The notes below the pieces were generated by a model that was given only the letters and a program-made list of their open reading frames with translations, was not told where the DNA came from and made no database searches. A program made the translations under genes and the position numbers. This document shows positions 1 to 24,068 of a stretch of 40,838 bases of DNA, one piece after another. The stretch comes from Paraglaciecola hydrolytica (GTDB taxonomy: Bacteria; Pseudomonadota; Gammaproteobacteria; Enterobacterales; Alteromonadaceae). Position 1 is the stretch's first letter, and each line of letters opens with the position of its first letter. The stretch lies in contig NZ_LSNE01000009.1 in NCBI RefSeq assembly GCF_001565895.1, positions 189,683 to 230,520 of the forward strand. Reading direction: 5' to 3'.

Positions 1-819
1 GCGCCATTGCCAGCCAGCCTTTTTGGCCGTTGATACAGTATAAGGGGGCAGTGGCTCGATGCGTTCGCAAGCTACCGCTTGGGCGCGGTTACAAGGTAGC
101 CAGTGGCTCCAATCTTTAAATTTTACGCCAAGGGTTTTATCTAACAACAGCGCTTTAAAACCGCTGCAATCAAAGAAAAAATCGGCTTCGATAATTCGCC
201 CATCTTCTAAAATGACACCTTTAATATTGCCTGAGTCTTGGTGAGTTGTGACATGTTTGATCTTGCCTTCAACTCGAATGATACCGCGCTCCTCTGCATA
301 GTCACGTAAAAATGCGGCATAGGCCGTGGCATCAAAATGATAGGCATAACGTAAGTGAGATAGCACCGATTTGGGATTATTGTCGGGTAAGATAAATTTA
401 GCCTGTTTGGCCGCGATAGCACAAATGCTGTAGTCTTCGAGCTTGGCAGCATTGCCATTAAGTTTGCTATGCAACCAGTATTGGTGAAAGTCGATGCCAT
501 TCATGTCAACGCCGTGGCCGCCAAAAGGATGGAAATAGCTATCACCTAGTTTGCCCCAGTCACGAAACTCAATACCTAACTTAAAAGTACCCTTGGTGGC
601 AGCCAGAAAGTCTCGCTCGTTAATGCCCAACATAAGATTAAAATTGGCGATATCGGGGATAGTGGCTTCGCCCACACCTATTGTGCCAATTTGTTCAGAC
701 TCTACTAAGGTAATTTTTACGTTTTCTGGCAGCAGCATTTTAGATAAGGCTGCGGCTGCCATCCAACCTGCCGTGCCGCCACCAATGATCGCGATAGATT
801 TAAGATTATGAGTGGCCAT
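1..819 (-). CDS. Flavin-dependent tryptophan halogenase family protein, C-terminus beyond the window
   Basis: The reading frame is open from an ATG at 819 to the left edge, giving the first 273 residues of a protein that is about 500 aa in this family. Visible motifs are the FAD-binding GGGTAGW at residues 13-19, GVGEATIP near 48-55, the lysine K80 in TFKLGIEF (equivalent to catalytic Lys79 of PrnA/RebH), DCSGF, and the start of the halogenase motif (GWQWR) at the edge. Known members oxidise halide with FADH2 and O2 and pass hypohalous acid to the lysine for transfer to an indole or other electron-rich ring. Its start overlaps the stop of the upstream gene by 14 bp, so the two are probably translationally coupled as the last visible gene of a three-gene operon. 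The real substrate is unknown. Residues past the WxWxIP motif, including the conserved Glu-Ser pair, are outside the window. Confidence 0.88.
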   Translation of the reverse strand, partial: MATHNLKSIAIIGGGTAGWMAAAALSKMLLPENVKITLVESEQIGTIGVGEATIPDIANFNLMLGINERDFLAATKGTFKLGIEFRDWGKLGDSYFHPFGGHGVDMNGIDFHQYWLHSKLNGNAAKLEDYSICAIAAKQAKFILPDNNPKSVLSHLRYAYHFDATAYAAFLRDYAEERGIIRVEGKIKHVTTHQDSGNIKGVILEDGRIIEADFFFDCSGFKALLLDKTLGVKFKDWSHWLPCNRAQAVACERIEPLPPYTVSTAKKAGWQWR

Positions 820-2257
820 GTTTATCCCTTAAGTACATCGAGAGTTTTTCTAAATAAAGGTGGTGAGGCGGCATTTTTGATGCCAGATGTGCCATGCCAG
901 CACACATGGCATCGAGTTGGGTTTGCATTGCATCAAAGTCAACTTGCTCAGCCATTCTGTCGTAACGTTCGGGTATTCTGCCAAGACCTGCATGTAGGAT
1001 TGCCCAATCTTGTTGGTTGAAAGGTTCAAAGTCAAAACTAGCTAGGATACCTCGATGTTTATACTGGCTTAACTTTCTGTCGAGTTTCTCATTTGCTTCA
1101 TAAACCACGTCTTGTTGCGCGGCATTGTGCTGTCCTGCATAGTGTGCACGATGAAAGAGTTCGGCGTGCACAACGTCATCAATGAATCGGCGATTGTATT
1201 CGTGGCTTTCTATCCGTGTATCAAGGCTTACCGGGATAAGTTCGAGTAATCGCTCGATGTCTTTTTTCAATAAGATATAGGGCGCTGGAGTCAGAGGCTC
1301 GAAGGCATAAGCAGCATGACTAATGCCAACACAATTGCCTTGCCATGCTTTGTGGCGATAACCAAGTTCAAGCCTTAGGCCATGTTCAGACTCAGTTGTA
1401 TAAGGAGATTCAACTAAGGTCACGATGTGATCTTTGCAACGTAAGGGCGTAATTAACTGCCAGCCGTGTTTGTTACCTGTCACTGAGCGGCAAGCTGGGC
1501 CGGTTTGTGCTTTTGTCTGGGTTTTGTTACTTACCTGCACAGTGCGCTGGCAGGCAAAGTCATTGTTGAGTTTTGACAGTAGTTGGCTGCTAGTGCCACT
1601 GCAGTCGATATATAAGTCTGCCTGTAATTTTGTGCCATCAGCCAATTGCACATAGTCGATATGCCCTTGGCTATGCTCAGGCTTATGGCTATGCTCCAGC
1701 GAGGAAATCTCCTGTTCAATCAGTGTGACTCGTGTTTTATCAAGGTGCTTAGAAAAAATGCCTGACCACTGAGCGGGATCAAAATGGTAGCCATATTCAG
1801 CACGTGACAGAGGTGATTGTGGATTATCGACAGGCGGATGGGCGAAAGTGCCCTTGATTGCCGCTTGCGCGCTAATTAAAAAATCACCTAAGATTGTTTT
1901 GTGCCGTGTCATAAAGTGATGTAACTCTACGCCAGCTGTCGCTGCAAAAGGCAAATGAAAACACTGCATCCACGAGCGTTTGTCATCACCCCAATGTTTA
2001 AAGTGAGTGCCAAATGAAAAGGTGGTATCGGTATCTAAGATTAGCTCTGGCTCTGTTACGCCATATTGTAAATTAAAGTGATAAGCATCTGGTGAACTGA
2101 GGCCTCCATATAGCACATCGCTAGGGCAGGGGGACATTGGTTTCACCCATAATAGAGTGATGTGTTTTGGCAGCGCTTTACTCAAGGCGAGAACCGTCAT
2201 GCTGGCCGCGAGAGTATTACCATAAACGAGAAATTGAGAGGTAGCTGGTTGCGACAT
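806..2257 (-). CDS. Degenerate tryptophan halogenase paralogue (probable pseudoenzyme), 483 aa
   Basis: The length and overall layout match the halogenase family, and it keeps DLYIDCSG near residues 214-221 and the GNCVGIS block near 308-314. The functional signatures are gone. The GGGTAGW loop is replaced by YGNTLAAS at 12-19. GVGEATxP is absent. The catalytic lysine position holds Ser81. The WxWxIP motif reads GWQLITP at 265-271. The conserved Glu-Ser of EPLES is Thr323-Pro324. The frame is nevertheless fully open and sits 3 bp after the preceding halogenase, overlapping the next one by 14 bp. This suggests a maintained protein, perhaps a non-catalytic partner of the flanking enzymes, rather than a decaying gene. 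It is unlikely to bind FAD in the usual way. The family assignment rests on position, length and residual motifs. Confidence 0.8.
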   Translation of the reverse strand: MSQPATSQFLVYGNTLAASMTVLALSKALPKHITLLWVKPMSPCPSDVLYGGLSSPDAYHFNLQYGVTEPELILDTDTTFSFGTHFKHWGDDKRSWMQCFHLPFAATAGVELHHFMTRHKTILGDFLISAQAAIKGTFAHPPVDNPQSPLSRAEYGYHFDPAQWSGIFSKHLDKTRVTLIEQEISSLEHSHKPEHSQGHIDYVQLADGTKLQADLYIDCSGTSSQLLSKLNNDFACQRTVQVSNKTQTKAQTGPACRSVTGNKHGWQLITPLRCKDHIVTLVESPYTTESEHGLRLELGYRHKAWQGNCVGISHAAYAFEPLTPAPYILLKKDIERLLELIPVSLDTRIESHEYNRRFIDDVVHAELFHRAHYAGQHNAAQQDVVYEANEKLDRKLSQYKHRGILASFDFEPFNQQDWAILHAGLGRIPERYDRMAEQVDFDAMQTQLDAMCAGMAHLASKMPPHHLYLEKLSMYLRDKHGHS

Positions 2258-2260
2258 GAT

Positions 2261-3787
2261 TTAGCTCTTCGCTCTTATCAGTTGACTGTTCGAAGCTGCA
2301 CCTATCGCCACTAAAAAGTCGGCATGATTCTTAGCTTGGTTTACCCCGTTTGCGATATCAGTGCGCATGGCTTGGGCTTGCTGTTTAAGCTCTACAAAAT
2401 TGTAATTATCCACACGAGGATCATAATGTTGGGGGCGCAGGTTTTGCCCTAGCATTACTGCTATCCAACTTGGTGGTAAAAAAGATCCAAACTCGTAACG
2501 TTGAACATAACCACGATGCAACCAGTAGTCTATTTTTTCTTGCAAACTGTCAGGCAAGGTCATGTTGCTAAAATAGCGCCACATTTCACTATCGTCACGC
2601 TTTGTCGCCACATAATGTAATAACAGAAAGTCGCGAACCCTCTCGAATTGCAAGGCCATACGGGCGTTGTATTCTGCTTTATCTAAGGTATTTGCTGAAG
2701 GGCTAGGGGATTCGTGGGGAAACAACTCTAGCAGGTTGGTAATGCCTTCTTGGATTAAATGAATCGAGGTGGACTCTAAAGGCTCTAAAAATCCGCCGGC
2801 AAGACCGATGGCAACAACATTGTTTTTCCAAAAATGATTGCGTCGGCCGGTTTTAAAATAGAGTTGTTTGGGCTCACTAAGGGCAGGGCCGTCTAAATTT
2901 TTGAGTAATACCGAAGTGGCTTCATCTTCTGAAATAAATTCATCCCAGTAGACGTGACCGTTACCAGTTCGATGTTGTAAAGGAATGCGCCATTGCCATC
3001 CGGCTTGCCGGGCTGTTGCTCGAGTATAAGGTGACAACGGCCCGTGACGTTCACAGGGTACCGCAACCGCGCGATTACAAGGGAGCCATTGCGACCAGTC
3101 TTGGTAACCGGATTGCAGTGTTTGTTCAATGAGTACGCCGCGAAATCCGGAACAATCTATAAACAAATCGGCACTGATTTGTTGCCCGTCATCTAGGGTA
3201 ATCGCAGTAACATCGCCAGAGCTTTTATCGATAAGGGTATCGACAACGATCCCCTCGATACGCCGCACGCCATTGTTTTGTGCAAAACCACTTAAAAATT
3301 TTGCATAAAGACCGGCATCAAATTGGTAGGCATAACCAAAAGCTTGCTGCAGTGGGCTTTTTCCGTCTTTGGGTAACTGAAATTTATTGTTTTTGGCCGC
3401 CACTATGCCAAACGCGTAGTCGTTTAGCACGCCATAGTCGCCATGTTTTGTGAGTTTTAATAAGTGCTGATAAAAGGCGATACCGTTAATTGTTTGGCCA
3501 AAGTCACCAAAGGGATGAACATAACTGTCGCCTAAACGGCCCCAGTCACAAAACTCGATACCTAACTTGTAAGTCGCTTCGGTCTGCTTCATGAAAGCAC
3601 TTTCATCTATACCTAGACCTTCATTAAACAACCTAATATGGGGCAAAGTAGCTTCACCAACCCCCACGGTACTGATGGTATCTGATTCAACTAGGGTGAT
3701 TGAATTTATTATATTTTTGAGTTTTTTGGAAAGTGCCGCCGCTGTCATCCAGCCAGCTGTACCACCACCAAGAATGCATACTCGCAT
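2261..3787 (-). CDS. Flavin-dependent tryptophan halogenase family protein, 508 aa
   Basis: A full-length member with all hallmark motifs: GGGTAGW at residues 7-13, GVGEATLP at 42-49, the PrnA/RebH Lys79-equivalent K74 in TYKLGIEF, DCSGFRG at 211-217, WxWxIP as WQWRIP at 264-269, and FLEPLES with Glu338-Ser339 matching the catalytic Glu346/Ser347 of PrnA. It should bind FADH2 supplied by a separate reductase and halogenate an aromatic substrate, most often an indole, in the cytoplasm (no signal peptide is visible). It is the first gene of the minus-strand trio. It is transcribed away from the TonB-dependent receptor at 4163, with a 375-bp shared upstream region. Many members of this class sit beside such receptors in Alteromonadales and Caulobacterales without a known substrate, so tryptophan specificity should not be assumed. 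Confidence 0.9.
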   Translation of the reverse strand: MRVCILGGGTAGWMTAAALSKKLKNIINSITLVESDTISTVGVGEATLPHIRLFNEGLGIDESAFMKQTEATYKLGIEFCDWGRLGDSYVHPFGDFGQTINGIAFYQHLLKLTKHGDYGVLNDYAFGIVAAKNNKFQLPKDGKSPLQQAFGYAYQFDAGLYAKFLSGFAQNNGVRRIEGIVVDTLIDKSSGDVTAITLDDGQQISADLFIDCSGFRGVLIEQTLQSGYQDWSQWLPCNRAVAVPCERHGPLSPYTRATARQAGWQWRIPLQHRTGNGHVYWDEFISEDEATSVLLKNLDGPALSEPKQLYFKTGRRNHFWKNNVVAIGLAGGFLEPLESTSIHLIQEGITNLLELFPHESPSPSANTLDKAEYNARMALQFERVRDFLLLHYVATKRDDSEMWRYFSNMTLPDSLQEKIDYWLHRGYVQRYEFGSFLPPSWIAVMLGQNLRPQHYDPRVDNYNFVELKQQAQAMRTDIANGVNQAKNHADFLVAIGAASNSQLIRAKS

Positions 3788-4162: not shown

Positions 4163-7100
4163 ATGGACACACAAAAAAGATCAATTGTTGCTTCGTCGGT
4201 GAAGGTAGCTCTGTATGGCGCCACCGCACTAATGACATCGTTGGCCGCGCATAATGCATTGGCACAAACGGCTGACGAAGCGGCGACCCTAAATGAAAAT
4301 GAAGAAGTCATTGAAGTCAGAGGTATACGTGGCGCATTAGCCAATGCGGCTGAATTAAAACGTGAATCTAATACTTTTATGGATTCAATTACAGCATCCG
4401 ATGCCAACGCCCTGCCTGACTTGTCTGTTGCCGAAGCCCTTTCTCGGGTGCCAGGCGTGACAGTAACTAAATTCGACATCGGCGCCAATGGCGGCGATTT
4501 CCCGTCGGCTGAAGGCTCAGGTAACTTAATCCGTGGTTTAGGTTTGATACGTTCTGAACTGAATGGCCGTGATGCTTTCACCGCAGATGGTGGTCGTGCC
4601 TTAGATTGGTCAAGTATTCCACCACAAATGATTGAAGGTGTTGATGTTTATAAAAATCAAAGTGCTGATCTGATTGAAGGTGGTATTGGTGGCAGTATTA
4701 ATCTTAGAACCATTGAGCCTTTTGATCGTGATGGACGTTTTGGTGTTATTTCGATAGATGGCACCTATAGCGACTTAAGAAAAGAAACCTCTCCTACATT
4801 TAGCGCGGTATTTGGTGACCGTTGGAAAACCGACAGCGGCGAGTTTGGCCTTGTAGGGTCATTTTCTCATTCTGAATTGAAATCATTATTTAACGGTTAT
4901 CAGTCAGGCGCGATTAATCCAGTTCCGGTTGGTTCTGTTGCAGGTGACAAATATTTTGATGTTGACGTAGAAGATTTTGTTGGCGATTTGATCCCGACTG
5001 CAGGTCAGACGGTTGGTATCATTAACGGTTTTCAACTGCGTGCTACAGAAGTAGATAGAAAACGTAGTAATGTCTACCTAGCGGGTCAATGGCAAAGTAA
5101 CGATGATTCGGTTAAAGCGACGGTTAAGTATATTCGTGTTGACAACAAAGTATTTGATTTAGAACGTACCACAGAGTGGCAAGATGGTGGTGGTGCTTAT
5201 GCGCAAACCACGAGCGATAGCAATATTATCGTGTCTGATGTCCGTCTTAGACCTTTTACCTCATCGGGTGTACCACGTTGCGGTAACGGTGCAACCGGAG
5301 ACGACCCAGCAAACTTCTGTAGTCAACTTATCCCAATAAATGGTGGTTTGTTCGAAGAAGGTGTTATTTCGTCTAACGAAAGCGGCTGGTTTGGTGCACC
5401 TGGTGCGCAAATTGGTAACTTAGGTATAGGTCGAGCAACAGACAGTCAGACCGACGATATAAGTATCAATATTGAATGGCAAGTAGATGATCAATGGTCT
5501 GTTGAATTTGATGCTCATCGCACCACATCTTCTCAGGAATACAGAGAGCAATGGATTGGCTCAACGACTCATTTGGACTTTAGAAGTCGCCCTAATTTAG
5601 ACAGTCCAGAAATTGAGTTTTTTTACAATGATGGCTTTACCTTTAATCAGGGTAATATTGTGGACGCAGGTAACAATGTTGTTCCTTCTGCTGCACCCAC
5701 TTCAACCTCTGATCCTGCAGGCTACTTTATGGGCTATGCGGCAGATACATTTAGAGACGGGGATGGCAAAGCCACGGCTGTTAAAGTGGATCTTACCTAC
5801 GATTTTAATCCAGATGGCGATGATTGGTTCCAGTCGGTTCAGTTTGGTGTACGCCGTGCAGAACGTGAGCAAATCTACCAAAATGCTGGGCTAAACTGGC
5901 AAGGTGTTAGCCAGGCTTGGGATGGCAACGGTATTGCAAGATTTAATGCCTTTGACTCTGAAGTTCATCAGGCATATGACTTTTCTGATTTCCAACGTGG
6001 TGGTGTCGTAGTCGGTGCAAATACTAGTATGGTTTTTGTGCACCCTGATTTGCTGAGAAACCCTGATTTGTTTTATGACTTTTTGGCCACTGAGCCAGAT
6101 TTAAACAATGGCGGCGAAAATAACGATCAATATACCCCTTCTTATTCACCCTTTAGTAATGGTACCGACACGCGCAGGGATGCTCAATATCGTGAACAGT
6201 ACACCGATGCACAAACAGCTAATGTCAATGAAGTGACGACAAATTTATACGCACGTTTTGACTTTGCACAAGATTTTGACAATGGCATGTATGTACAAGG
6301 TAACTTTGGTGTTCGTTATGTCAAAATGGAAACTGACTCAATAGGCTCTTACCAATACAACCAATTTGGCGCAGATGAACAACAAGTTGGTCGTCCACCT
6401 GAAATAGAAGCTATTGATAACATAAGGGATTTCTTACCAGAAACGGCGGCCTATCTTGATCAGGCATCAACCGACAGAAGTCTTGGTCTGAATAAGGATT
6501 ATTATTTGCCTTCATTCAACGTTAAGTTGCATCTTGATGACGAATGGTTAGTCAGATTTGGTTTAAGCAGAGGCTTAACACTACCTGATATCGGTAGCTA
6601 CAGTGCTTCGCAGAATATAGGTGCTGTGACGAGTATTCAATTCCCTGAAATTGAAGAGGGCGATCCCGATCCAATTGGTGCTCTAGGTGCCAATGTGTCT
6701 CGCTTAGTAATCAATGGCGGTAACCCTAATCTGCAAGCGACGGAAGCGACTAACTTAGACTTAGCCCTTGAATGGTATGGCGATGGCGGTAATTATTTCA
6801 GTCTGGCGTTTTTTAATAAACAAATTAAAGACATAGTGCAAACTGGCGCAATTGCTCAAGTTGATGCGATTAATTTAGACGGTAAAGAAGTACCCATTTA
6901 TTATTCAGGTGCTATGAATCAGTCTGATGCTAAGGTTAATGGTTTTGAAGTTTCAGGTCAGTATTTCTTTGATAATCTACCTGGCTTATGGTCAAACTTA
7001 GGCGTACAAGCTAACTATACTAAACTGAATGTTGACGCTGACTCACCTGATCGTTCTCTTGATGCGGATGGCGATGGTATTCCAGATGGTTTTGACGGTA

Positions 7101-7462
7101 TTGTGCGTATAACGACCTTAAACGGTATTATCGGCCAATCAGAAAACTTTGCTAACCTTGTGGGTATTTATCAGGATGATAAGTTAGAAGTACGTATAGC
7201 TTATCAATATCGTGATGAATACCTGAACTCATACGTGACGTTCATCACAGGTAACCCAAATATTCAAGATGACAACTTCTCGTTGGATGCCTCGGTTAAA
7301 TACCACATAACAGATAATCTCCAAGTGAGTTTACAAGGTACTAACCTGACGGATGAACTTCAGACATCTAAGGATATCTTGAATGGAGGAGGAGAAACCT
7401 TCCAACGTTCGAGCTTTATGTTTGATCGCCGCTTCCAGTTTGGGGTGCAATACACCTTCTAG
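4163..7462 (+). CDS. TonB-dependent receptor, Xanthomonas/Caulobacter type, 1099 aa
   Basis: An outer-membrane active importer. A signal peptide ends near residue 35 (ALAQ), followed by a TonB-box-like stretch around EEVIEVRG and a plug domain with the class-typical EALSRVPGVTV, NGRDAF and GGIGGSINLRT elements. A long beta-barrel follows and ends in the terminal-Phe signature FGVQYTF. The length is large but normal for this class, which imports oligosaccharides in Alteromonadales. The ATG at 4163 has GGAG 6 nt upstream. It is divergent from a halogenase operon and controlled by the operator at 3940. The neighbouring GH16, GH3 and GH1 genes make a beta-1,3-glucan oligosaccharide the most likely cargo, but that is inference from context. 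A terminator follows. Confidence 0.93.
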   Translation: MDTQKRSIVASSVKVALYGATALMTSLAAHNALAQTADEAATLNENEEVIEVRGIRGALANAAELKRESNTFMDSITASDANALPDLSVAEALSRVPGVTVTKFDIGANGGDFPSAEGSGNLIRGLGLIRSELNGRDAFTADGGRALDWSSIPPQMIEGVDVYKNQSADLIEGGIGGSINLRTIEPFDRDGRFGVISIDGTYSDLRKETSPTFSAVFGDRWKTDSGEFGLVGSFSHSELKSLFNGYQSGAINPVPVGSVAGDKYFDVDVEDFVGDLIPTAGQTVGIINGFQLRATEVDRKRSNVYLAGQWQSNDDSVKATVKYIRVDNKVFDLERTTEWQDGGGAYAQTTSDSNIIVSDVRLRPFTSSGVPRCGNGATGDDPANFCSQLIPINGGLFEEGVISSNESGWFGAPGAQIGNLGIGRATDSQTDDISINIEWQVDDQWSVEFDAHRTTSSQEYREQWIGSTTHLDFRSRPNLDSPEIEFFYNDGFTFNQGNIVDAGNNVVPSAAPTSTSDPAGYFMGYAADTFRDGDGKATAVKVDLTYDFNPDGDDWFQSVQFGVRRAEREQIYQNAGLNWQGVSQAWDGNGIARFNAFDSEVHQAYDFSDFQRGGVVVGANTSMVFVHPDLLRNPDLFYDFLATEPDLNNGGENNDQYTPSYSPFSNGTDTRRDAQYREQYTDAQTANVNEVTTNLYARFDFAQDFDNGMYVQGNFGVRYVKMETDSIGSYQYNQFGADEQQVGRPPEIEAIDNIRDFLPETAAYLDQASTDRSLGLNKDYYLPSFNVKLHLDDEWLVRFGLSRGLTLPDIGSYSASQNIGAVTSIQFPEIEEGDPDPIGALGANVSRLVINGGNPNLQATEATNLDLALEWYGDGGNYFSLAFFNKQIKDIVQTGAIAQVDAINLDGKEVPIYYSGAMNQSDAKVNGFEVSGQYFFDNLPGLWSNLGVQANYTKLNVDADSPDRSLDADGDGIPDGFDGIVRITTLNGIIGQSENFANLVGIYQDDKLEVRIAYQYRDEYLNSYVTFITGNPNIQDDNFSLDASVKYHITDNLQVSLQGTNLTDELQTSKDILNGGGETFQRSSFMFDRRFQFGVQYTF

Positions 7463-7651: not shown

Positions 7652-8653
7652 TTAGTTGATATTTTTTACTGAATCTCTGACTACAAGTTCAGGAATGAAC
7701 AAGTGTTGGATGTCTTCTTTACGATCAATATACAGGTTGTTGAGTACCCAAGAGGCGGCGGTTTTACCGATGTCAGAGATAGGGTAATTGATCGTGGATA
7801 GTTTAGGGTAGGTGTAACGGCTAAAGACTAAATTATCAAAACCAATGACTGAAACATCGTCGGGTATACTGCGACCTTTTTCACGTAAGGCACTCATGGC
7901 TCCGGCAGCCATTTCATCGTTGGCACAGGCGATAGCGCTAAAAGCAATGCCCGTTTCCAGTAGCACCTGAACGCCTTTCTGACCACCTTCCTCTTGAAAG
8001 TTTCCTTCATAAATCAAACGTTTGTTGGGCTTAATGTTAAACTCTTGCAAGGCTCTAAGGTGACCGTCATAGCGGTTTTTGGCATCGGTTTTCCACAATG
8101 GACCTGCTATATATGCAATATCGCGATGGCCTTGTTGCAATAAAAATTTAGTGGCGGTGTAGCCACCCATTTCATTGTCTAAACAAATACAATTAGCGGC
8201 AATTTCTGGAATATAACGGTTGACGGTAACAAAAGGGATCTTGCGAGTTTTTAGCTCAATCAGATATTCATCGGATACGGCTTCAACATGCAGTATTAGT
8301 GCATCACAGCTACGGCTGATCAAAAACTCCACACCTTCTTTTTCACTTTTTTCGTCACTGTGGCCCGCGGTAATAATGGCGTGTTTACCAAATTCACGTA
8401 GTGCTAGCTCAATGTCGCTCATCATTGAGCCATAAAACGAACCGTGTAACTCTGAAACTAAAATACCTACGCTATTTGAACGGTTAGAGGCTAAAGACTG
8501 GGCAACCGTGTTGGGCCGGTAATCTAGCTTCTTCATAGCTTCCAAGACCTTAAGCTTGGTTTTTTCACTGACCAGACTATTGTTGTTAATAACCCGCGAC
8601 ACTGTGGCTAATGAGACGCCCGCCAATTCAGATACTTGATAAATAGTTGCCAT
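7652..8653 (-). CDS. LacI/GalR-family transcriptional regulator, 333 aa
   Basis: The N-terminal helix-turn-helix occupies residues 4-25 (YQVSELAGVSLATVSRVIN), followed by the hinge helix YRPNTVAQSLAS near 46-57 with the Leu-Ala pair that this family inserts at the central CpG of its operator. A periplasmic-binding-protein-like ligand domain fills the rest, with a normal total length. It is the last gene of the minus-strand operon with GH1 and the GPH symporter, 33 bp after the symporter stop. Three 14-bp operators with an AAGCGCTT core lie upstream of its own operon, receptor 1 and GH16, so it is probably the autoregulated local repressor released by a beta-glucan breakdown product. The operator pairing is inferred from proximity and site type. 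Confidence 0.92.
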   Translation of the reverse strand: MATIYQVSELAGVSLATVSRVINNNSLVSEKTKLKVLEAMKKLDYRPNTVAQSLASNRSNSVGILVSELHGSFYGSMMSDIELALREFGKHAIITAGHSDEKSEKEGVEFLISRSCDALILHVEAVSDEYLIELKTRKIPFVTVNRYIPEIAANCICLDNEMGGYTATKFLLQQGHRDIAYIAGPLWKTDAKNRYDGHLRALQEFNIKPNKRLIYEGNFQEEGGQKGVQVLLETGIAFSAIACANDEMAAGAMSALREKGRSIPDDVSVIGFDNLVFSRYTYPKLSTINYPISDIGKTAASWVLNNLYIDRKEDIQHLFIPELVVRDSVKNIN

Positions 8654-8686
8654 ATTTTTAGTTTTATATTCCGTTTTTAAAGCCGA

Positions 8687-10039
8687 TTAAGTTTGCGCTG
8701 TTTGCATCTGAGTTGTTTTGTTTAAGTCATTTTGTAAGTCTACGACTTTACTTTCAGTCAAACGATAGTAACGCATAATAAATGCAACGATCAAAGATGC
8801 AATACCGGGATACACAGCAAACGAAAAAACGATACCCTGTTTGACACTTTCAGTTTGTACTGCATCTGCTTCATAACCGTAAAAAGCTAACAACCAACCC
8901 GCTAACGCGCCACCAATTGCCAAACCAAGTTTAATAAAAAAGACTACTGACGAATAAACAATGCCCGTAATGCGAAGTCCGCTCTTCCATTCACCGTAAT
9001 CCACGGTGTCGGCCATTTTGGCCCACAATAAAGGCGTGGCCATCTGGATAAAAAAGCTCCAGAAAAAGTAGGCCGCAAAGGCTAGGGCAATTTGTTCTGA
9101 GCCAATAAAATAGCTGACAATGCTGATGATAGCAGCGACCACTTGTAAACCTATGTAGGCCTTTACCTTGCCGATTTTTTTGGCGATATAGGGCGAACAA
9201 ATGCAGCCGAGAATATTACCAACCATGCCCAATGTCACAAAAGCCGTGATCAACTCTTCACGTAACAAATAATATTTAACGTAATAAATTGCCAGAGTTG
9301 AACGTAGAACCATGCCTATCAATAAAAACATCGCAGCGCCGCATAATACTCGCCATTGATCATTTTTGAACAAGGCTTTGAAGTCTTGTTTGAGTGTGGA
9401 GTTTTTAGAGGCACTGACAGTAACACGCTCTTTAGTACCAGCAAAACACAGCACAAACAGCACAATACCCAATATGCTTAAGGCACCAATGGTAAGTTGA
9501 TAACCTTTAGCTTTATCACCAGCGCCAAACCAATCAACTAAGGGAATGGTTAGTGAAGTGACTAACAGCCCACCTAACATGGCACATACAAAACGATAAG
9601 ACTGTAGTGATACTCGTTCAGTTGGATCGCTGGTTAATACTGCTCCCAAAGCAGAGTAGGGGATGTTAATGGCGGTATAGGCAATCATTAATAGACTGTA
9701 AGTAACAAAGGCGTAGATGATCTTGCCCTGTGGTGTTAAATCTGGGGTAGTAAAGGCCAAAACACTGATGGCGGCAAAGGGTATGCACAGCCAAATCAAA
9801 TAAGGTCTGAATTTTCCATGGCGAGTATTGGTTCGGTCAGTCAGGGCGCCCATCATGGGATCAGTCACCGCATCTAGTATCCTTACCGCTAAAAACATAG
9901 TACCCACTACCGCAGGCGAGATGCCAAAGATGTCAGTATAAAAAAATGACAAAAATAACATGACCGTTTGAAACACTATATTACTGGCGGTATCACCCAA
10001 GCCGTAGGCAATTTTTTCTTTGATACTCAGTGTTTGCAT
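8687..10039 (-). CDS. GPH-family (MFS) glycoside:cation symporter, 450 aa
   Basis: An inner-membrane secondary transporter with about 12 hydrophobic segments. Family marks are YGLGD near the N-terminus, the DAVTDPMMGALTDRT loop and the following RHGKFRPYL between the early helices, typical of glycoside-pentoside-hexuronide:cation symporters. It probably takes glucosides or short beta-glucan oligosaccharides into the cytoplasm, where the adjacent GH1 would cleave them. The ATG at 10039, 2 nt after the GH1 stop, is the likely start. A TTG at 10045 would overlap that stop and has GAGG closer upstream, so it remains an alternative. It is the middle gene of the GH1-symporter-LacI operon. Confidence 0.9.
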   Translation of the reverse strand: MQTLSIKEKIAYGLGDTASNIVFQTVMLFLSFFYTDIFGISPAVVGTMFLAVRILDAVTDPMMGALTDRTNTRHGKFRPYLIWLCIPFAAISVLAFTTPDLTPQGKIIYAFVTYSLLMIAYTAINIPYSALGAVLTSDPTERVSLQSYRFVCAMLGGLLVTSLTIPLVDWFGAGDKAKGYQLTIGALSILGIVLFVLCFAGTKERVTVSASKNSTLKQDFKALFKNDQWRVLCGAAMFLLIGMVLRSTLAIYYVKYYLLREELITAFVTLGMVGNILGCICSPYIAKKIGKVKAYIGLQVVAAIISIVSYFIGSEQIALAFAAYFFWSFFIQMATPLLWAKMADTVDYGEWKSGLRITGIVYSSVVFFIKLGLAIGGALAGWLLAFYGYEADAVQTESVKQGIVFSFAVYPGIASLIVAFIMRYYRLTESKVVDLQNDLNKTTQMQTAQT

Positions 10040-10041
10040 AA

Positions 10042-11424
10042 TCAAATGACCTCGTTATTGATGAGGTGAGGACGGCTAGTTACAAAATCTCGGTAGGCCT
10101 TGCCACTAGTTTTAATGGTGCGTTGCTGAGTTTGGTAGTCAACATAAACAATACCAAAACGTTTAACATAACCTTCGGCCCATTCAAAATTATCCATCAA
10201 ACTCCAGGCAAAATAGCCTTTGATATTGACCCCTTGGCGAATAGCACTATCAACCGCCATCAAATGGGTTTGGTAATAACTCAATCGATCTTGATCATCG
10301 ACTTTATTATCCAGCATTTTGTCCGGCATGGCAGCGCCATTTTCGGTAATGTAAATGGGCGGGAGTTTATAGGTATTATGCAGATCAAGTAGTAACTCAG
10401 TTAAGCCTTGAGGATAAATTTCCCAGCCCATATCCGTTAAAGGCAGTGGTTTTTCTGTCACTTTGGCAAAGCCATTTTGCATATCAGTTTGGTAAATTTC
10501 ACGCGTGTAATAATTAACACCCATGTAGTCCATTGCTGCTGAGATGATATCCATGTCTCCGTCCACTATGTCGGGTCTATGATCAAGCGGTATCTCATTG
10601 ATAAGTGCCGGGTATTGCCCATCAATCAAGGGTTTGATGTACCACTGGTTAAAGTGTTGGTCGGCTAACTGAGCGGCATTGATGTCTTGTGGTTCATCGG
10701 TAAGGCTATGGCAGGGGGTAAAATTAAGTACAATGCCATTCATACTGTTGGGGCTGTTTTTAGCGAGTACTTCCATCGCTAGACCATGAGCTAGTAATAG
10801 GTGGTGAGCTGCTTTTTTACCAAATTTTGGGCTTTTTAAACCCGGAGCGTGGATGCCAATTTCGTAACCTAGATAAGAGCTGCAGAAAGGTTCATTTAAG
10901 GTAGAGTAGGAATAGACTTTATCACCAAAAGCTTGGCTTACTAAATCAACATAATGTTTGAATTGATAAGCGGTTTCGCGGTTTAACCAGCCACCTTGAT
11001 CTTCTAAATACTGGGGCAAGTCCCAATGGTACAAGGTAACATAAGGTTTAATACCCTTGGCTAACAAACCATCAAGCAAATTAAGATAAAAACTAATGCC
11101 TTGTTGATTTAATTGACCATTTTGCAACATCACTCTTGGCCATGAAATGGAAAAGCGATAAGCATCAACTCCTAAAGAGGCGATAAGGTCTATGTCTTGT
11201 TGCCATAAATTGTAGTGATCACAAGCCACTAAACCGTCAGAACTGTCCCTGATAGCACCAGGCTGCTGGCAAAACCTATCCCAGATGCTTTCTAAACGTG
11301 TATCAGCACCCCCTTCAATTTGAAATGATGCTGTTGCAACACCAAAGGTGAAGTCAGGTGACAACAAGGAGGAATCGCCAGGGATCTGCAATTGAGTCTG
11401 ATTAGTTAGACTTTCCGTTAACAT
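10042..11424 (-). CDS. Glycoside hydrolase family 1 beta-glucosidase, 460 aa
   Basis: A typical GH1 length and TIM-barrel pattern: FGVATASFQIEG near residues 27-38, RFSISWPR at 90-97, acid/base Glu178 in TLNEP, and nucleophile Glu361 in YITENG. The C-terminal block FAWSLMDNFEWAEGY is conserved for the aglycone and sugar subsites. No signal peptide is seen, so it is cytoplasmic and would hydrolyse imported cellobiose- or laminaribiose-type oligosaccharides to glucose. It is the first gene of the operon with the symporter and the LacI regulator, with the operator at 11510-11523 about 86 bp upstream of its start. Confidence 0.95.
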   Translation of the reverse strand: MLTESLTNQTQLQIPGDSSLLSPDFTFGVATASFQIEGGADTRLESIWDRFCQQPGAIRDSSDGLVACDHYNLWQQDIDLIASLGVDAYRFSISWPRVMLQNGQLNQQGISFYLNLLDGLLAKGIKPYVTLYHWDLPQYLEDQGGWLNRETAYQFKHYVDLVSQAFGDKVYSYSTLNEPFCSSYLGYEIGIHAPGLKSPKFGKKAAHHLLLAHGLAMEVLAKNSPNSMNGIVLNFTPCHSLTDEPQDINAAQLADQHFNQWYIKPLIDGQYPALINEIPLDHRPDIVDGDMDIISAAMDYMGVNYYTREIYQTDMQNGFAKVTEKPLPLTDMGWEIYPQGLTELLLDLHNTYKLPPIYITENGAAMPDKMLDNKVDDQDRLSYYQTHLMAVDSAIRQGVNIKGYFAWSLMDNFEWAEGYVKRFGIVYVDYQTQQRTIKTSGKAYRDFVTSRPHLINNEVI

Positions 11425-11509
11425 GATAACTCTCTTTTCTGGTTAAACTTATTCAACAAGTTGAAATTAGCTTTATAAATTTCTAGACATTTTGTAAGGC
11501 GACAATTAT

Positions 11510-11555
11510 TGTAAGCGCTTTCATAAATGTTATACGGATGTTAAGTTTGCGTCAA
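11510..11555 (-). promoter_or_regulatory. GH1-operon promoter and LacI-type operator (site 2)
   Basis: Read on the minus strand, TTGACG (11555-11550), a 17-nt spacer, a -10-like TAACAT (11532-11527), 3 nt, then TGAAAGCGCTTACA (11523-11510). The operator is identical to site 3. On the plus strand the same operator falls inside a possible TTGTAA / TATACG promoter (11509-11514, 11531-11536) that could drive GH3, so one site may control both directions. The remaining 11556-11684 stretch is AT-rich leader with nothing else recognised. Confidence 0.65.
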
Positions 11556-11684
11556 ATGATAATCAATAGAAGTGTGAAATGCTTTTTTAAAATTAACTAA
11601 ATCAATAGTTTAATTGATTGATATTCGACGATATGCGTAACAAATGTATATCCACCTATTTATTTATCTTATTAAGGCAGGTCC

Positions 11685-11822
11685 ATGGCTCAAATTTCCG
11701 GTGTCGCACCAACAATACAATTGGCTCAACCATATTCTGCTCCCAAACAAGGTTTTGTTTTGCATGTCTTAGCTACTCGCCAAACAAGATCTCACACTCA
11801 AGCATCTGGAGTCGCTCGGTAA
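11685..11822 (+). CDS. Candidate 45-aa leader ORF whose stop overlaps the GH3 start
   Basis: An ATG at 11685 follows AAGGCAGG and opens 45 codons that end in TAA at 11820-11822. The last base of this stop is the first base of the GH3 ATG (TAATG), the arrangement used for translational coupling. GH3 itself has only a distant GGAG, so reinitiation after this ORF could matter. The peptide shows no signal sequence and no recognised family. It could be a chance ORF in a long untranslated leader. A different in-frame upstream extension of GH3 from 11618 was judged unlikely because it would bury the lipoprotein signal. Confidence 0.35.
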   Translation: MAQISGVAPTIQLAQPYSAPKQGFVLHVLATRQTRSHTQASGVAR

Positions 11823-14377
11823 TGAAATTTTCACTTTCTTATTTCGCCATACCTGCCGCCCTCTTTACCTTGTCTGCTTGTAGTGATAATCCTGCTATTC
11901 CTAGTAGCGCTAAAAGTAGCGATAACAGCCAGAGTGCGACTCAAGTACCTGATTTTTGGCCCGTATTGGATATTGCGATAAAAACAGACGCAGGGGTTGA
12001 AAAACAGGTCGCTGAGTTATTAGCCAAGATGACCATTGAGCAAAAAGTCGCTCAGACGATTCAGCCAGAAATTCGTGATATCACTGTTGAAGACATGCGC
12101 CAATATGGTTTTGGTTCGTTTTTAAACGGTGGTGGCGCCTTTCCTGACAATAACAAACACGCCACACCTCAAGATTGGATTGCCGTTGCTCAGGCCATGT
12201 ATTTAGCCTCGGTTGATGATTCACTCGACGGTTCAAAAATTCCTACCATGTGGGGCACAGATGCCGTACACGGCCACAACAATGTGATTGGCGCGACGTT
12301 GTTCCCACATAATATTGGTTTGGGTGCCATGCATAATCCCGCCTTGATCAAAGAGATTGCTAAAGCCACGGCTGCAGAAGTAATGGCAACTGGTATTGAC
12401 TGGGTATTTGCACCCACTGTTGCGACTGTACAGGATGACCGCTGGGGGCGAACTTACGAGAGTTATTCTGAAGATCCGGCGATTATTCGCCAGTATTCAC
12501 AGGCCATAGTGGAGGGATTACAAGGCGACCCACAAAGTGGTTATTTTAAAGATGACAATGTTATTTCTACGGTAAAACACTTTGTTGGTGATGGCGGTAC
12601 CGTAAAAGGTGATGACCAAGGTGATAATCTATCTACTGAACAGCAGTTGTTTGAATTACATGCCCAAGGTTATGTTGGCGGCCTAAGTGCCGGCGCTCAA
12701 GTGGTGATGGCTTCGTTTAATAGTTGGCATGGTGAAAAACTTCACGGTCATCAATATTTGCTAACCGATGTACTTAAAAAACGCATGGGTTTTGATGGTT
12801 TTGTGGTGGGTGACTGGAATGGTCATGGGCAGGTCTTAGGTTGTAGCAATGAAAGTTGCCCACAAGCCATGAATGCAGGCTTAGATGTTTACATGGTCGC
12901 CACTCCAGCGTGGAAACCGCTTTACGAAAATACCTTAGCCCAGGTCAAATCTGGCGAAATCCCTTTAGCGCGTTTAGATGATGCCGTTACTCGTATTTTG
13001 CGAGTAAAAGTACGTGCAGGTTTGTTTACTAAACCCGCGCCTTCCGAGCGTAAATACGCCAATTTAAACAATGTAATTGGTAACGATGCCCATCGCGCTG
13101 TGGCTCGACAGGCCGTGCGTGAGTCATTAGTGCTACTTAAAAATAATGGGCAACTATTACCATTAAAAGCCACTCAGGCATTTTTACTGGCGGGTGATGG
13201 TGCCGACAATATTGGTAAACAAAGTGGTGGTTGGACTATCACTTGGCAAGGTACCGGTAACAATAACGATGATTTCCTCGGTGGACATTCCATTTATGAC
13301 GGTATCAAATCGCGGGTTGAAGCCGCAGGTGGCAGTATTGAACTGGCGGTAAACGGCGAATATCAGCAAAAGCCCGATGTTGCTATTGTGGTTTTTGGTG
13401 AAGAGCCTTATGCCGAAGGCAATGGCGATATTGATAACCTTGAGTATCAACGTGGCAATAAAACGGATTTAGCTTTACTGCGAAAATTAAGCGCGCAAGG
13501 TATTCCTACCGTTGCGATTTTCCTCTCGGGTCGACCACTGTGGGTTAATCCAGAACTCAACGCCTCTGATGCTTTTATTGCTGCTTGGTTGCCGGGTAGT
13601 GAAGGGCAGGGGGTCGCCGATGTGATTTTAGCCGATGATTCAGGCAAGGCCGAATTCGACTTTATCGGGCGTTTACCCTTTTCTTGGCCAACCACACCGA
13701 CTCAAACACCTTTAAATTTTTATGATGCAGACTATCAACCGCTGTTTAAACTGGGTTACGGTTTGAGTTATAACAGTCATGCCGAACTAAGTAATGAACT
13801 GTCTGAAGTTGTAGAAAAGACAGAGCAAAATATTCAAACCAAGGTTTTGTTTGAACGCTCTGCCATAACACCCTTGTATGTGGCTATTAATGAGGATAAT
13901 CAAACCCTTAGAATGAATAGCAATAGCCTGATGACACCTAATATTAAAGTGCGTACCACTGATAGAACGGTGCAAGAAGATGCTTTACAGATCACGTGGT
14001 TAACGGACCAAGTTAGTAAATTTAGTTTGCAGAGTGATTTTCCTGATGACTTACGTTCATCGCTAGAAGCCAACAGTAGTTTACAGTTTGATATCAAACT
14101 TAATTCACTCTCAGAGCCACAAATTGAACTGCTAATTGAATGTGGCGATGCCTGCAATGGGCGCGTTGTTTTAAAGGAGCAGCTTGAAAACCAGCAATCT
14201 AGTTGGCAGACAATGAGTATTGACTTAGGCTGTTTTGCTCAACAAGGAGTAGATTTTTCTAAGATATATTCACCTTTTGCTTTAACGGCAAATAAAGATA
14301 CCCAGATTGAATTATCGAATATTCGTTTAGTTGCCAATAGTGCGGATGTAGCGACGATTCAGTGTGCCGCTAACTAA
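11822..14377 (+). CDS. Glycoside hydrolase family 3 lipoprotein (exo-beta-glucanase/beta-glucosidase), 851 aa
   Basis: The start at 11822 gives a lipoprotein signal with lipobox LSAC (Cys20) and Ser at +2, consistent with outer-membrane sorting. The GH3 N-domain covers about residues 55-400, with GTDAVHGHNNV at 145-155, KHF near 252-254 and catalytic Asp331 in VVGDWNGHGQ. The GH3 C-domain follows. The last ~150 residues form a beta-rich domain (SSWQTMSIDLGCF, TQIELSNIRL) like the galactose-binding-type C-terminal domain of Pseudoalteromonas ExoP enzymes. It would release glucose from the ends of beta-1,3/1,4-glucan oligosaccharides at the cell surface or in the periplasm. It lies between the divergent GH1 operon and the GH16 gene, and inverted repeats follow its stop. 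Confidence 0.93.
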   Translation: MKFSLSYFAIPAALFTLSACSDNPAIPSSAKSSDNSQSATQVPDFWPVLDIAIKTDAGVEKQVAELLAKMTIEQKVAQTIQPEIRDITVEDMRQYGFGSFLNGGGAFPDNNKHATPQDWIAVAQAMYLASVDDSLDGSKIPTMWGTDAVHGHNNVIGATLFPHNIGLGAMHNPALIKEIAKATAAEVMATGIDWVFAPTVATVQDDRWGRTYESYSEDPAIIRQYSQAIVEGLQGDPQSGYFKDDNVISTVKHFVGDGGTVKGDDQGDNLSTEQQLFELHAQGYVGGLSAGAQVVMASFNSWHGEKLHGHQYLLTDVLKKRMGFDGFVVGDWNGHGQVLGCSNESCPQAMNAGLDVYMVATPAWKPLYENTLAQVKSGEIPLARLDDAVTRILRVKVRAGLFTKPAPSERKYANLNNVIGNDAHRAVARQAVRESLVLLKNNGQLLPLKATQAFLLAGDGADNIGKQSGGWTITWQGTGNNNDDFLGGHSIYDGIKSRVEAAGGSIELAVNGEYQQKPDVAIVVFGEEPYAEGNGDIDNLEYQRGNKTDLALLRKLSAQGIPTVAIFLSGRPLWVNPELNASDAFIAAWLPGSEGQGVADVILADDSGKAEFDFIGRLPFSWPTTPTQTPLNFYDADYQPLFKLGYGLSYNSHAELSNELSEVVEKTEQNIQTKVLFERSAITPLYVAINEDNQTLRMNSNSLMTPNIKVRTTDRTVQEDALQITWLTDQVSKFSLQSDFPDDLRSSLEANSSLQFDIKLNSLSEPQIELLIECGDACNGRVVLKEQLENQQSSWQTMSIDLGCFAQQGVDFSKIYSPFALTANKDTQIELSNIRLVANSADVATIQCAAN

Positions 14378-14461
14378 AAATTATATAGCTGTACATCCGA
14401 TACCTTAAATTACTACATTTCTATCTTTAACTTTGCTTTCAGTAACATATACGCCTGTTGC

Positions 14462-14626
14462 TGAAAGCCCTTTCAAATAAGCGACTGGTTTTTGTTAACA
14501 AAAACCAGTCGGTAAATACCTGTCTTTGCTAAATCCGATTTTAATTGCTGTTTAAATATGCACCATTGAGTGGGGGGCTTCAGTGTAGCCCCTGTAAATA
14601 CAGTGCAATACCATTGTGTTGGTATT
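14462..14626. repeat. Cluster of inverted repeats downstream of GH3
   Basis: Four symmetrical elements lie in the 401-bp stretch between GH3 and GH16. TGAAAGCCCTTTCA (14462-14475) resembles the LacI-type operators but has a different core. A 30-bp perfect palindrome runs from 14482 to 14511 (arm CGACTGGTTTTTGTT). GGGGCT/AGCCCC (14574-14579 and 14587-14592) and AATACCA/TGGTATT (14607-14613 and 14620-14626) are short hairpins. None is followed by a T-run, so none is a standard intrinsic terminator. The large palindrome is still the best candidate for the GH3 transcript end. Confidence 0.5.
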
Positions 14627-14672
14627 CGTTAATTAAATTAATTTATTTGTTATAAGTGATGTTAATTATTTG

Positions 14673-14718
14673 TTGACCTTTCGTATGCTTTGATTTAATT
14701 TTGTTGAAAGCGCTTACA
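14673..14718 (+). promoter_or_regulatory. GH16 promoter and LacI-type operator (site 3)
   Basis: TTGACC (14673-14678), a 17-nt spacer, TAATTT (14696-14701), 3 nt, then TGAAAGCGCTTACA (14705-14718). The layout is the same as the GH1 promoter on the other strand, and the operator would cover the transcription start. It serves the GH16 gene and perhaps the genes that follow on the plus strand. Confidence 0.75.
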
Positions 14719-14778
14719 TTATTGAAAGTGGTTTCACTTGTTTCACTTGTTTTACTTTTTGCTACTAGGAATTCATGT

Positions 14779-17427: not shown

Positions 17428-17457
17428 GTGATATTAGCGCAACGAAATCAAATGAGG

Positions 17458-17507
17458 ATCAAAGTGATGGCATGTAAGACAGTAACAATGCTGTGCCTCA
17501 CTTTGAT
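17458..17507 (+). other. Hairpin between GH16 and receptor 2
   Basis: ATCAAAGTGA (17458-17467) pairs with TCACTTTGAT (17498-17507). After a single bulged T the stem continues with GGCA (17469-17472) and TGCC (17494-17497), leaving a loop of 21 nt. There is no T-run behind it, and it sits 31 bp after the GH16 stop and 35 bp before the receptor ATG. It could protect a processed GH16 mRNA end or tune expression of the receptor. Confidence 0.55.
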
Positions 17508-17542
17508 GTTTGAAAAAGTTTGAACTTATAAGTAGGGCAATT

Positions 17543-20482: not shown

Positions 20483-20503
20483 TTAAGGCTGAGGTAATTA
20501 AAC

Positions 20504-20530
20504 AAAAAGCCGCTGATTCAGCGGCTTTTT
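20504..20530. terminator. Intrinsic terminator after receptor 2, probably bidirectional
   Basis: AAAAAGCCGCTG (20504-20515), loop ATT, then CAGCGGCTTTTT (20519-20530). The A-tract and T-tract flank a GC-rich stem in both orientations. It separates the receptor from the halogenase 80 bp downstream, which may have its own weak promoter in 20531-20600, or rely on partial read-through. Confidence 0.88.
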
Positions 20531-20609
20531 ACTTTTAATTAGCGTGATATATTGTTAAAAAGTTCTTATGTCTGAGTATTCAGGCAACAGATAAAGCAGG
20601 AAAGGTTTG

Positions 20610-22166
20610 GTGGATAAGACAACTCGCATTATTACTATTGTTGGTGGTGGCACAGCCGGGTGGTTAACCGCTGGTGTTATTGCCGCAGAGCACATGGCAA
20701 ATAGTGAGCAGGGCATTGAAGTACGTTTAATTGAGTCACCTGATGTAAATATCGTGGGGGTAGGTGAAGGTACGTGGCCAACCATGCGTGGCACCCTTAA
20801 AAAAATGGGCATTAGCGAAACTGACTTTATCCGTGAATGTGATGCCAGTTTTAAACAAGGGGCAAAATTTGCCAAATGGGTAACAGGCGCAGAAAACGAT
20901 GCTTATTATCATCCTTTGGTACTACCTCAAGGTTATGAAGAAATAAACTTAGTGCCTTTTTGGCAACCTCATGGCGATAAAGTGTCTTTTGCCGATGCCG
21001 TCAGTTTTCAAGGCCATTTGTGCGAACGTGGATTAGCGCCCAAACAAAATACTACGCCTGAATACGCACATGTAGCTAACTATGCATATCATCTTGATGC
21101 GGGTAAGTTTGCGGTTTTTCTGCAAAAACACTGCACGCAAAAATTAGGTGTGAAACATATTCTGGATCATGTTATTCAGGTGAATGCTGCGGAAAATGGT
21201 GATATTGCTTCTCTAACTACTAAAAACTCCGGCGACATAAGTGGCGACCTGTTTATCGATTGCTCGGGATTTAACGCCCTGTTGATTGGTCAGCATTATC
21301 AGGTGCCGTTTATCTGCAAAAAACACATATTATTCAACGATAGCGCTTTGGCTTGTCACGTTCCTTATGCCAACAAAAACGATGCAATTGTTTCGCACAC
21401 TGTCTCAACCGGTCAGTCAGCGGGTTGGATATGGGATATAGGTTTACCCTCTCGTCGCGGAGTAGGCCATGTCTATTCCAGCACACATATTAGTGATGCT
21501 AAAGCTGAAGCTGAATTACGAGACTATATACGCACCAGCCGTGCTGATATTGCCGATGAATTAACTATCCGAAAAATTGATATCAAACCCGGCCATAGGG
21601 AGGTGTTTTGGCACAACAACTGTGTGGCGGTAGGCTTGTCGGCAGGATTTTTAGAGCCTTTGGAAGCCTCAGCATTGGTGCTGGTTGAACTATCAGCTCA
21701 AATGATCAGTGAACAATTACCTGCTAGCCGTGCAGTCATGGATATTGTAGCTAAACGTTTTAACGATAAGTTTTTATATCGTTGGGACAGAATTATCGAT
21801 TTTCTAAAATTGCATTATGTGCTGACCAAACGCACTGACAGTCAATATTGGATAGATAATTGTAAAGCTGAAACTATCCCACAAGCCTTACAATCTTTGT
21901 TAACCTTGTGGCGTTACGAATCACCTTGGCACCATGATTTTACGCAGGTTGACGAAGTCTTCCCCTCCGCCAGTTACCAGTATGTATTGTATGGAATGGG
22001 CTTTGAAACGCTAAGCAGAGCCACTCAGCGCCGTTCACAAAATGCCCAACAAGCAGAGCAACAATTCAGAAAAAATACTGAGTTAAGTCAAAAATTAGTC
22101 GCGGGTTTACCCACTAATCGTGATTTAATTAATAAAATCCACCAGTATGGATTGCAAAAAATCTAA
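20610..22166 (+). CDS. Flavin-dependent halogenase family protein with a WxWxIG variant motif, 518 aa
   Basis: It starts at GTG 20610 with AAGG just upstream; a TTG one codon earlier is the alternative. The FAD loop GGGTAGW is at residues 12-18, GVGEGTWP at 50-57, the Lys79-equivalent is K82 in SFKQGAKF, and DCSGF and FLEPLEAS with the catalytic Glu are present. The hallmark WxWxIP reads WIWDIG, with Gly replacing the Pro and a Pro two residues later. It is therefore probably active but belongs to a different branch from the two canonical enzymes at the left end. It lies after receptor 2 and before SapC and a predicted hydroxylase, an order common beside receptors in this group of bacteria. 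Its substrate is unknown. Confidence 0.88.
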   Translation: MDKTTRIITIVGGGTAGWLTAGVIAAEHMANSEQGIEVRLIESPDVNIVGVGEGTWPTMRGTLKKMGISETDFIRECDASFKQGAKFAKWVTGAENDAYYHPLVLPQGYEEINLVPFWQPHGDKVSFADAVSFQGHLCERGLAPKQNTTPEYAHVANYAYHLDAGKFAVFLQKHCTQKLGVKHILDHVIQVNAAENGDIASLTTKNSGDISGDLFIDCSGFNALLIGQHYQVPFICKKHILFNDSALACHVPYANKNDAIVSHTVSTGQSAGWIWDIGLPSRRGVGHVYSSTHISDAKAEAELRDYIRTSRADIADELTIRKIDIKPGHREVFWHNNCVAVGLSAGFLEPLEASALVLVELSAQMISEQLPASRAVMDIVAKRFNDKFLYRWDRIIDFLKLHYVLTKRTDSQYWIDNCKAETIPQALQSLLTLWRYESPWHHDFTQVDEVFPSASYQYVLYGMGFETLSRATQRRSQNAQQAEQQFRKNTELSQKLVAGLPTNRDLINKIHQYGLQKI

Positions 22167-22230
22167 GCTGGCTGTGATAACTAACAATAAATCTAATTAA
22201 AATAAACAAAACAGAATAAATGGAAAGTCT

Positions 22231-23966: not shown

Positions 23967-24068
23967 AAGCTAAAATTTTGCTTGAGTTAAGTGCTAATAA
24001 TAGGCCATGGCGCTGATAAAAATATACTGTTAACCTTTGTCAATCTGCGTTTTAAGGTAATCAATGCA

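Follow-up and report, generated by a model that had tools for sequence, protein, structure and literature searches.

A maintained halogenase pseudoenzyme encoded beside intact flavin-dependent halogenases in Paraglaciecola hydrolytica and related bacteria

Results

The halogenase operon and its surroundings

The window, by which we mean the whole 40,838-nucleotide stretch of Paraglaciecola hydrolytica DNA that was analysed, begins within an operon of halogenase genes on the minus strand. Halogenase A (2261..3787) is a canonical flavin-dependent halogenase of 508 aa in which the catalytic motifs are present, halogenase B (1..819) is canonical and cut by the window edge, and the fourth gene, for canonical halogenase C, follows B just outside the window. 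Between A and B lies the gene that we term D1 (806..2257, minus strand), identified by Pfam and by its orthologues, which encodes a pseudo-halogenase of 483 aa with an ATG start and an intact frame. Its start codon lies 3 bp beyond the stop of A, its upstream partner, and its own stop overlaps the start of B by 14 bp, so that the frame and both junctions reported in the preliminary description are confirmed on the sequence. A Pfam search matches D1 to PF04820 (Trp_halogenase) with an E-value of 9.6e-49, compared with 3.9e-177 for the neighbouring A, and both this homology and the Foldseek fold matches described below place D1 in the family. No domain other than Trp_halogenase was found in D1 by Pfam and NCBIfam searches, and no alternative function emerged from searches of solved structures, Pfam and NCBIfam.

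A divergent TonB-dependent receptor (4163..7462, plus strand), with Plug and beta-barrel domains by Pfam, lies on the far side of A. The region that follows (7652-24000) holds a LacI regulator, an MFS sugar transporter, GH1, GH3 and GH16 enzymes and a second TonB receptor, which would make it a glucan-type uptake locus; at its end, a halogenase, SapC and a cupin make up another type of receptor-linked halogenase set. The 5.2-Mb genome as a whole encodes about twenty Trp_halogenase homologues, several of them beside TonB receptors, which is a large expansion.

D1 has lost the catalytic and flavin-binding motifs

Alignment with canonical halogenases shows how far D1 departs from its family. The former FAD loop (2201..2221, minus strand) reads GNTLAAS at residues 13-19 where the canonical sequence is GGGTAGW, and LYGGLSSPD stands at the place of GVGEATLPH. 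Ser81 (2015..2017, minus strand) occupies the position of the catalytic lysine, GWQLITP (residues 265-271; 1445..1465, minus strand) the WxWxIP stretch, and Thr323-Pro324 (1286..1291, minus strand) the position of the catalytic Glu-Ser pair. D1 accordingly has none of the four features expected of a functional halogenase, namely the GxGxxG loop, the catalytic Lys, WxWxIP and the catalytic Glu. All 11 orthologues with an open frame (11/11) are devoid of the Lys, of the Trp of WxWxIP and of both members of the Glu-Ser pair, and their Lys position is S, T or C throughout; the twelfth gene (genome G202) carries one frameshift and was aligned at some of the motifs. Because the same residues are gone in all 11 open-frame orthologues, the losses are not a matter of chance. 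Every substitution listed in the preliminary description was thus recovered, and none of the 11 homologues retains the catalytic residues, the observation that would have told against a maintained pseudoenzyme.

Orthologues and gene order

A profile of four D1 proteins was searched against the family, where orthologues reach E-values of 1e-140 or lower before a drop to 1e-60 for the matches that come next. D1 orthologues occur in 12 genomes in all: 11 of 395 family genomes, from 7 genera, and one (G686) from another class of the same phylum, which was the only new D1 genome among 349 genomes. Searched against 199 genomes of the family in that other class, the profile gave nothing at E 1e-60 beyond this already-known case. 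D1 is therefore no oddity of the window alone. Within the genus of the window, 4 of 22 genomes carry it, among them a relative (G014) with the same operon.

Gene order recurs together with the substitutions, and the arrangement of A, pseudo-halogenase and B is found again in the relatives. Halogenase A lies immediately upstream of D1 in 11/12 genomes, the contig of the remaining one (G149) stopping at that point, and halogenase B lies immediately downstream in 12/12. A receptor-like gene is present in the fetched DNA around D1 in 11/12, the contig of G017 stopping before it; the window's receptor was tested by Pfam, and the other receptor-like genes were recognised by eye from their length and start. 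The preliminary description held that a close relative with the operon but without D1 would count against a maintained role. One genome of the genus (G003), the single one where we came upon other operon genes but no D1, is such a case in part, since D1 is absent there but A is gone as well: what remains (L066 5628-9025) is an intact C, the last three quarters of B and a receptor-like fragment alongside, and tblastn searches for A and D in G003 gave just the weaker matches expected of paralogues. From the sequence remnant, it looks as if A and D had been lost together.

Selection on D1

The dN/dS ratios were estimated by the Nei-Gojobori method for eight pairs of D1 genes, of which seven gave finite values (0.104, 0.094, 0.183, 0.164, 0.192, 0.142 and 0.244). 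The corresponding ranges for the neighbours are 0.028-0.106 for A (7/8 finite), 0.028-0.063 for B (7/8) and 0.029-0.080 for C (5/6). Pairs that include the window genome are saturated, with dS near 2 or infinite; in three D1 pairs at dS 0.5-0.7 the ratio is 0.16-0.19 for D compared with 0.05-0.11 for A, B and C. D evolves at about twice the rate of its neighbours, and 82 columns are invariant across 11 D1 proteins from two classes. The frame is open in 11/12 D1 genes, that of G202 being split by one frameshift that is possibly an assembly error. The catalytic residues are thus missing from a gene that is under purifying selection. The earlier suggestion of a maintained pseudoenzyme is well supported by these comparisons, the dN/dS of 0.09-0.24 being well below 1 though roughly double that of the neighbours.

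The old substrate pocket is conserved and the flavin site is not

Two parts of D1 correspond to the substrate site of canonical halogenases. The segment WMQCFHLPF (residues 96-104; 1946..1972, minus strand), equivalent to the Trp2 substrate-binding segment, is strongly conserved among D1 proteins, and in the equivalent of the substrate-site loop (residues 401-418; 1004..1057, minus strand) Glu411, Asp417 and Trp418 are invariant in 11/11. Defining the pocket regions as the Trp1 and Trp2 segments (described in PMC8269204) together with the BrvH substrate loop (described in PMC5945002), we found that across 11 D1 proteins the pocket segments are better conserved than random blocks (P 0.004), with no such excess for the segments of the flavin and catalytic sites (P 0.23). 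With the regions fixed beforehand, 12 D3 proteins, members of a second subfamily introduced below, gave P 0.009 for the pocket and 0.46 for the flavin and catalytic segments; the pocket regions had been picked after viewing the D1 columns and some D3 columns, so that the D3 test is only partly blind. In the A partners both regions are conserved, with P values for pocket and for flavin plus catalytic segments of 0.014 and 0.009 (partners of D1) and of 0.048 and 0.002 (partners of D3). Since the pocket is conserved and the flavin segments are not, in D1 as in D3, D, as read from these alignments, maintains its own pocket but no longer the flavin site.

A structural model of D1 built from seven sequences is weak (mean pLDDT 64, pTM 0.73), and a control model of A from the same seven sequences reached pLDDT 76 and pTM 0.82. 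The best Foldseek matches of the D1 model are 9luq (Pseudoalteromonas), 6frl (Brevundimonas) and 6y1w (Xanthomonas), with query TM-scores of 0.66-0.71. The halogenase fold is kept in the predicted structure of D1, and the models say no more than this.

A wider set of degenerate halogenases

Other degenerate homologues, which we refer to collectively as D, were spotted in a motif table of the halogenase ORFs in the fetched DNA. We aligned 37 such proteins in groups whose names are our own and which were drawn partly by eye: D1 (11), D2 (1), D3 (13), D4 (1), D5 (3), D6 (4) and four unplaced proteins (those of G885, G979 and G063, and one of two in G097). Outside the 37 stand the frameshifted gene of G202 and three D genes found late, behind halogenases of the Gly type defined below: those of G200, of G158 contig 3 and of G1000 (L083 3045-4461, L091 1-1426 and L208 131-1498), the last from the other-class family. 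Four proteins in the D position are very eroded (425-467 aa) and barely recognisable by sequence (L126 7329-8606, L068 6759-8120, L187 9467-10837 and L222 105-1508).

An intact homologue is encoded alongside D across species: a canonical halogenase lies immediately upstream of 36/37 D genes, mostly a few bases off, and the 37th gene is at a contig end. The window genome by itself has four A-D pairs. The catalytic Lys is gone in 35/37 D proteins, the WxWxIP Trp in 37/37 and the intact Glu-Ser pair in 37/37, with the Glu alone retained in two of the 37 and an unsure alignment for the most eroded members; the Lys position holds 12 different residues across the set. The proteins of G885 and G979, from the other class, keep GGGVAGW or GGGVVGW, whereas their Lys and the Trp of WxWxIP are gone. 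Because they retain the Gly-rich loop without these residues, loss of catalysis in that lineage probably preceded loss of the flavin loop. These homologues from the other class (L188 5769-7205 and L219 4904-6682), with a Gly-rich flavin loop and no catalytic Lys, sit in second position behind A and are possible intermediates. Whether all D proteins share one role is unsure, given how little the most eroded of them (420-467 aa) keep.

A D3 profile searched against 295 genomes of the order gave no new case at E 1e-58. The G885 protein matched 109 of 199 genomes of the other-class family at 1e-65, and just G979 stood out by score; the G1000 pair of that family came up later, so D genes are missed by score alone. 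In a first tree, 24 D rows fall on one side of a branch with SH-aLRT 96. A second, smaller tree, made without 30 rows (eight long-branched D rows, the rest near-copies, four of them D), places 17 D rows on one side of a branch with SH-aLRT 98. A single origin of all D proteins is compatible with these trees, and we do not claim it because long branches may attract each other.

The upstream partner carries a glycine signature

The A partners also group together: 21/23 A rows form one group in the first tree, with two unresolved, and in the second the 23 A rows, like the 17 D rows, are each split by a branch from the other labelled rows (SH-aLRT 90 for A), six unlabelled canonical rows being on the A side. 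Within D1 the branching order of D mostly matches those of A, B and C, and D and A branch in parallel. Few columns separate A from B and C in a set of 53 proteins, namely Arg52, Tyr431, Gly434 and Arg458. Gly434 of halogenase A (2486..2488, minus strand) is the signature position, acidic in most halogenases that have no D behind them. By manual count on the alignment it matches the position that directly precedes Met442 and Phe443 in BrvH, two residues described as lining the substrate site (PMC5945002). The upstream halogenase has Gly in 35/36 pairs, the other having an alignment gap, and 29/37 D proteins have Glu or Asp at the column where A has Gly.

The association was examined in 190 distinct canonical halogenases, each followed by 600 bp or more of DNA. 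Among the 52 halogenases used to find the signature, a D gene follows in 22/22 with Gly and 1/30 without, the latter being the gap case; among the 138 outside its discovery, a D gene follows in 17/19 with Gly versus 1/119 without. The two halogenases with Gly but no D are distant proteins of the GVGEGST type, and the non-Gly case is a 338-aa ORF. We checked the 17 positive cases singly, and several motif columns do not align in the most eroded of them. Seven of the 19 Gly halogenases (L095, L117, L118, L121, L186, L187 and L219) had entered through a D search or sighting, which makes them circular; with those set aside, D follows in 10/12. At stricter distances the overall counts are 37/41 with Gly versus 1/149 without. 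As the genes are related, we claim no probability for the association, and as A and D each form, for the most part, a single lineage, the counts are not independent events.

Discussion

Based on the alignments and gene neighbourhoods presented herein, we lean modestly towards the view that D is a maintained non-catalytic halogenase homologue working as a partner of the upstream canonical halogenase A. The partner role is probably that of a ligand-binding chain in a heterodimer, an arrangement to which adjacency, the parallel branching of A and D and the Gly found in the upstream halogenase point indirectly. The likeliest partner is A alone, because A-D pairs without B exist, and these pairs likewise weaken any requirement for both flanking halogenases. 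We infer contact between the chains, a ligand and an effect on A from what the sequences record, namely loss, maintenance, pairing, signature and pocket conservation. In the proposed mechanism, D would fill one place in a dimer of the type found in Trp-halogenase crystals, with A in the other, or would dock on A; A would make hypohalous acid and halogenate; and D would offer a pocket for substrate, product or another ligand, or would hold A in shape. With a TonB-dependent receptor next to the operon, the substrate may be one that is tied to uptake. The preliminary idea of a substrate-binding subunit is strengthened in that in two subfamilies (D1 and D3) the old substrate pocket is conserved and the flavin site is not, and the ligand may be of another kind.

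Several observations are to be counted against such a partnership. All Trp-halogenase crystals are reported to contain the same dimer, though by the same account Xcc4156 and Thal are possibly monomers when in solution (PMC7336383); the possibility that these related enzymes are monomers weighs against an A-D dimer. Halogenase A keeps every catalytic residue and, to judge from its sequence, looks self-sufficient, D evolves faster, one D1 is frameshifted and two Gly halogenases have no D. The full catalytic set of A, together with a pocket conserved without a flavin site, would also suit a D that is a free-standing ligand binder, that is, a carrier, sensor or chaperone of a pathway intermediate with no stable complex with A. 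We regard this as unlikely, if well worth considering, since the adjacency of A and D and the Gly signature specific to A suggest direct functional dependence on A. Less probable still is a D that has become an enzyme of new, flavin-independent chemistry, its old pocket acting on the product of A or B. The D1 pocket does contain invariant new polar and aromatic residues (Trp96, Gln98, Glu411 and Asp417), and D3 has a different conserved pocket set; but the catalytic site differs among the D subfamilies, with its dozen residues at the Lys position, unlike what one shared chemistry would produce, and no other domain is recognised by Pfam or NCBIfam.

That D has kept an unconventional mode of flavin binding, with halogenating or oxidising activity, is, in our estimate, very improbable. 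The fold is retained in the model, the Gly-rich loop is kept in G885, G979 and one D of G097, and the Lys is kept in 2/37; however, the Lys is missing from all the others, no D has an intact Glu-Ser pair (0/37) or the WxWxIP Trp (0/37), in D1 and D3 the segments for flavin and catalysis are conserved no better than random blocks, and BrvH with just its Lys changed is reported to be dead (PMC5945002), so that this one change kills the enzyme. Least credible of all is a pseudogene decaying within the operon, which would be expected to have a broken frame and a dN/dS near 1. The faster evolution of D and the one frameshifted gene of 12 would fit decay, but it is ruled out by the low dN/dS, the invariant columns and the 11/12 intact frames of D1.

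The proposed partnership between a dead D and an intact A has relatives among known systems. The best sequence and fold matches of D1 are halogenases of the BrvH / Xcc4156 type (PF04820; PDB 6frl and 6y1w, and 9luq from Pseudoalteromonas), which are also the best sequence matches of A and are similar in length and predicted fold; unlike them, D1 is without GxGxxG, the catalytic Lys, WxWxIP and Glu. A closer analogy in organisation is Ams8 of the armeniaspirol cluster of an actinomycete, which is described as a halogenase homologue without the catalytic Lys and predicted to be without FAD binding (PMC13311259). Deletion of Ams8 is reported to abolish the product and Ams8 is proposed to be an auxiliary subunit; the predicted Ams8-Ams9 heterodimer outscores both homodimers, although its authors caution that a high score may be spurious (PMC13311259). 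Like D and A, Ams8 and Ams9 are an inactive halogenase homologue encoded with an intact one. As described, that is one case beside PltA-type halogenases in an antibiotic cluster, with a predicted complex, whereas the D/A pairs are of the BrvH type, lie in receptor-linked operons of many species, fall into several subfamilies and carry a signature residue in the partner. The same account (PMC13311259) recalls the ketosynthase and chain-length factor of type II polyketide synthases, an active and a non-catalytic homologue whose heterodimer tunnel sets chain length; there the complex is proven and the fold and chemistry are unrelated, while an A-D complex is proposed from the patterns given above. 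The statement that such pairing was undescribed for this family therefore has to be narrowed: Ams8/Ams9 is in print (PMC13311259), and our searches of the open-licence literature turned up no description of receptor-linked A-D pairs.

Going beyond the single operon, we put forward, as a tentative proposal whose odds we place below even, an undescribed two-subunit class of flavin-dependent halogenases whose receptor-linked operons occur in two or more classes of a single phylum. Its members would combine a catalytic A lacking the acidic residue beside the substrate site with an obligate dead D in which a substrate-type pocket and, in most cases, the acidic residue are retained. Recognition of the substrate and halogen chemistry would then be split between homologous chains.

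Many "tryptophan halogenases" encoded beside TonB receptors have been named by homology alone, and BrvH is described as slow on indole, its natural substrate being given as not known (PMC5945002). If one class of these enzymes does need a dead partner, assays of single proteins would miss the true activity. One could then also trace the change of an enzyme into a subunit through partly degraded relatives in which the Gly-rich loop survives, and the Gly signature in A makes A-D pairs searchable from sequence by anyone.
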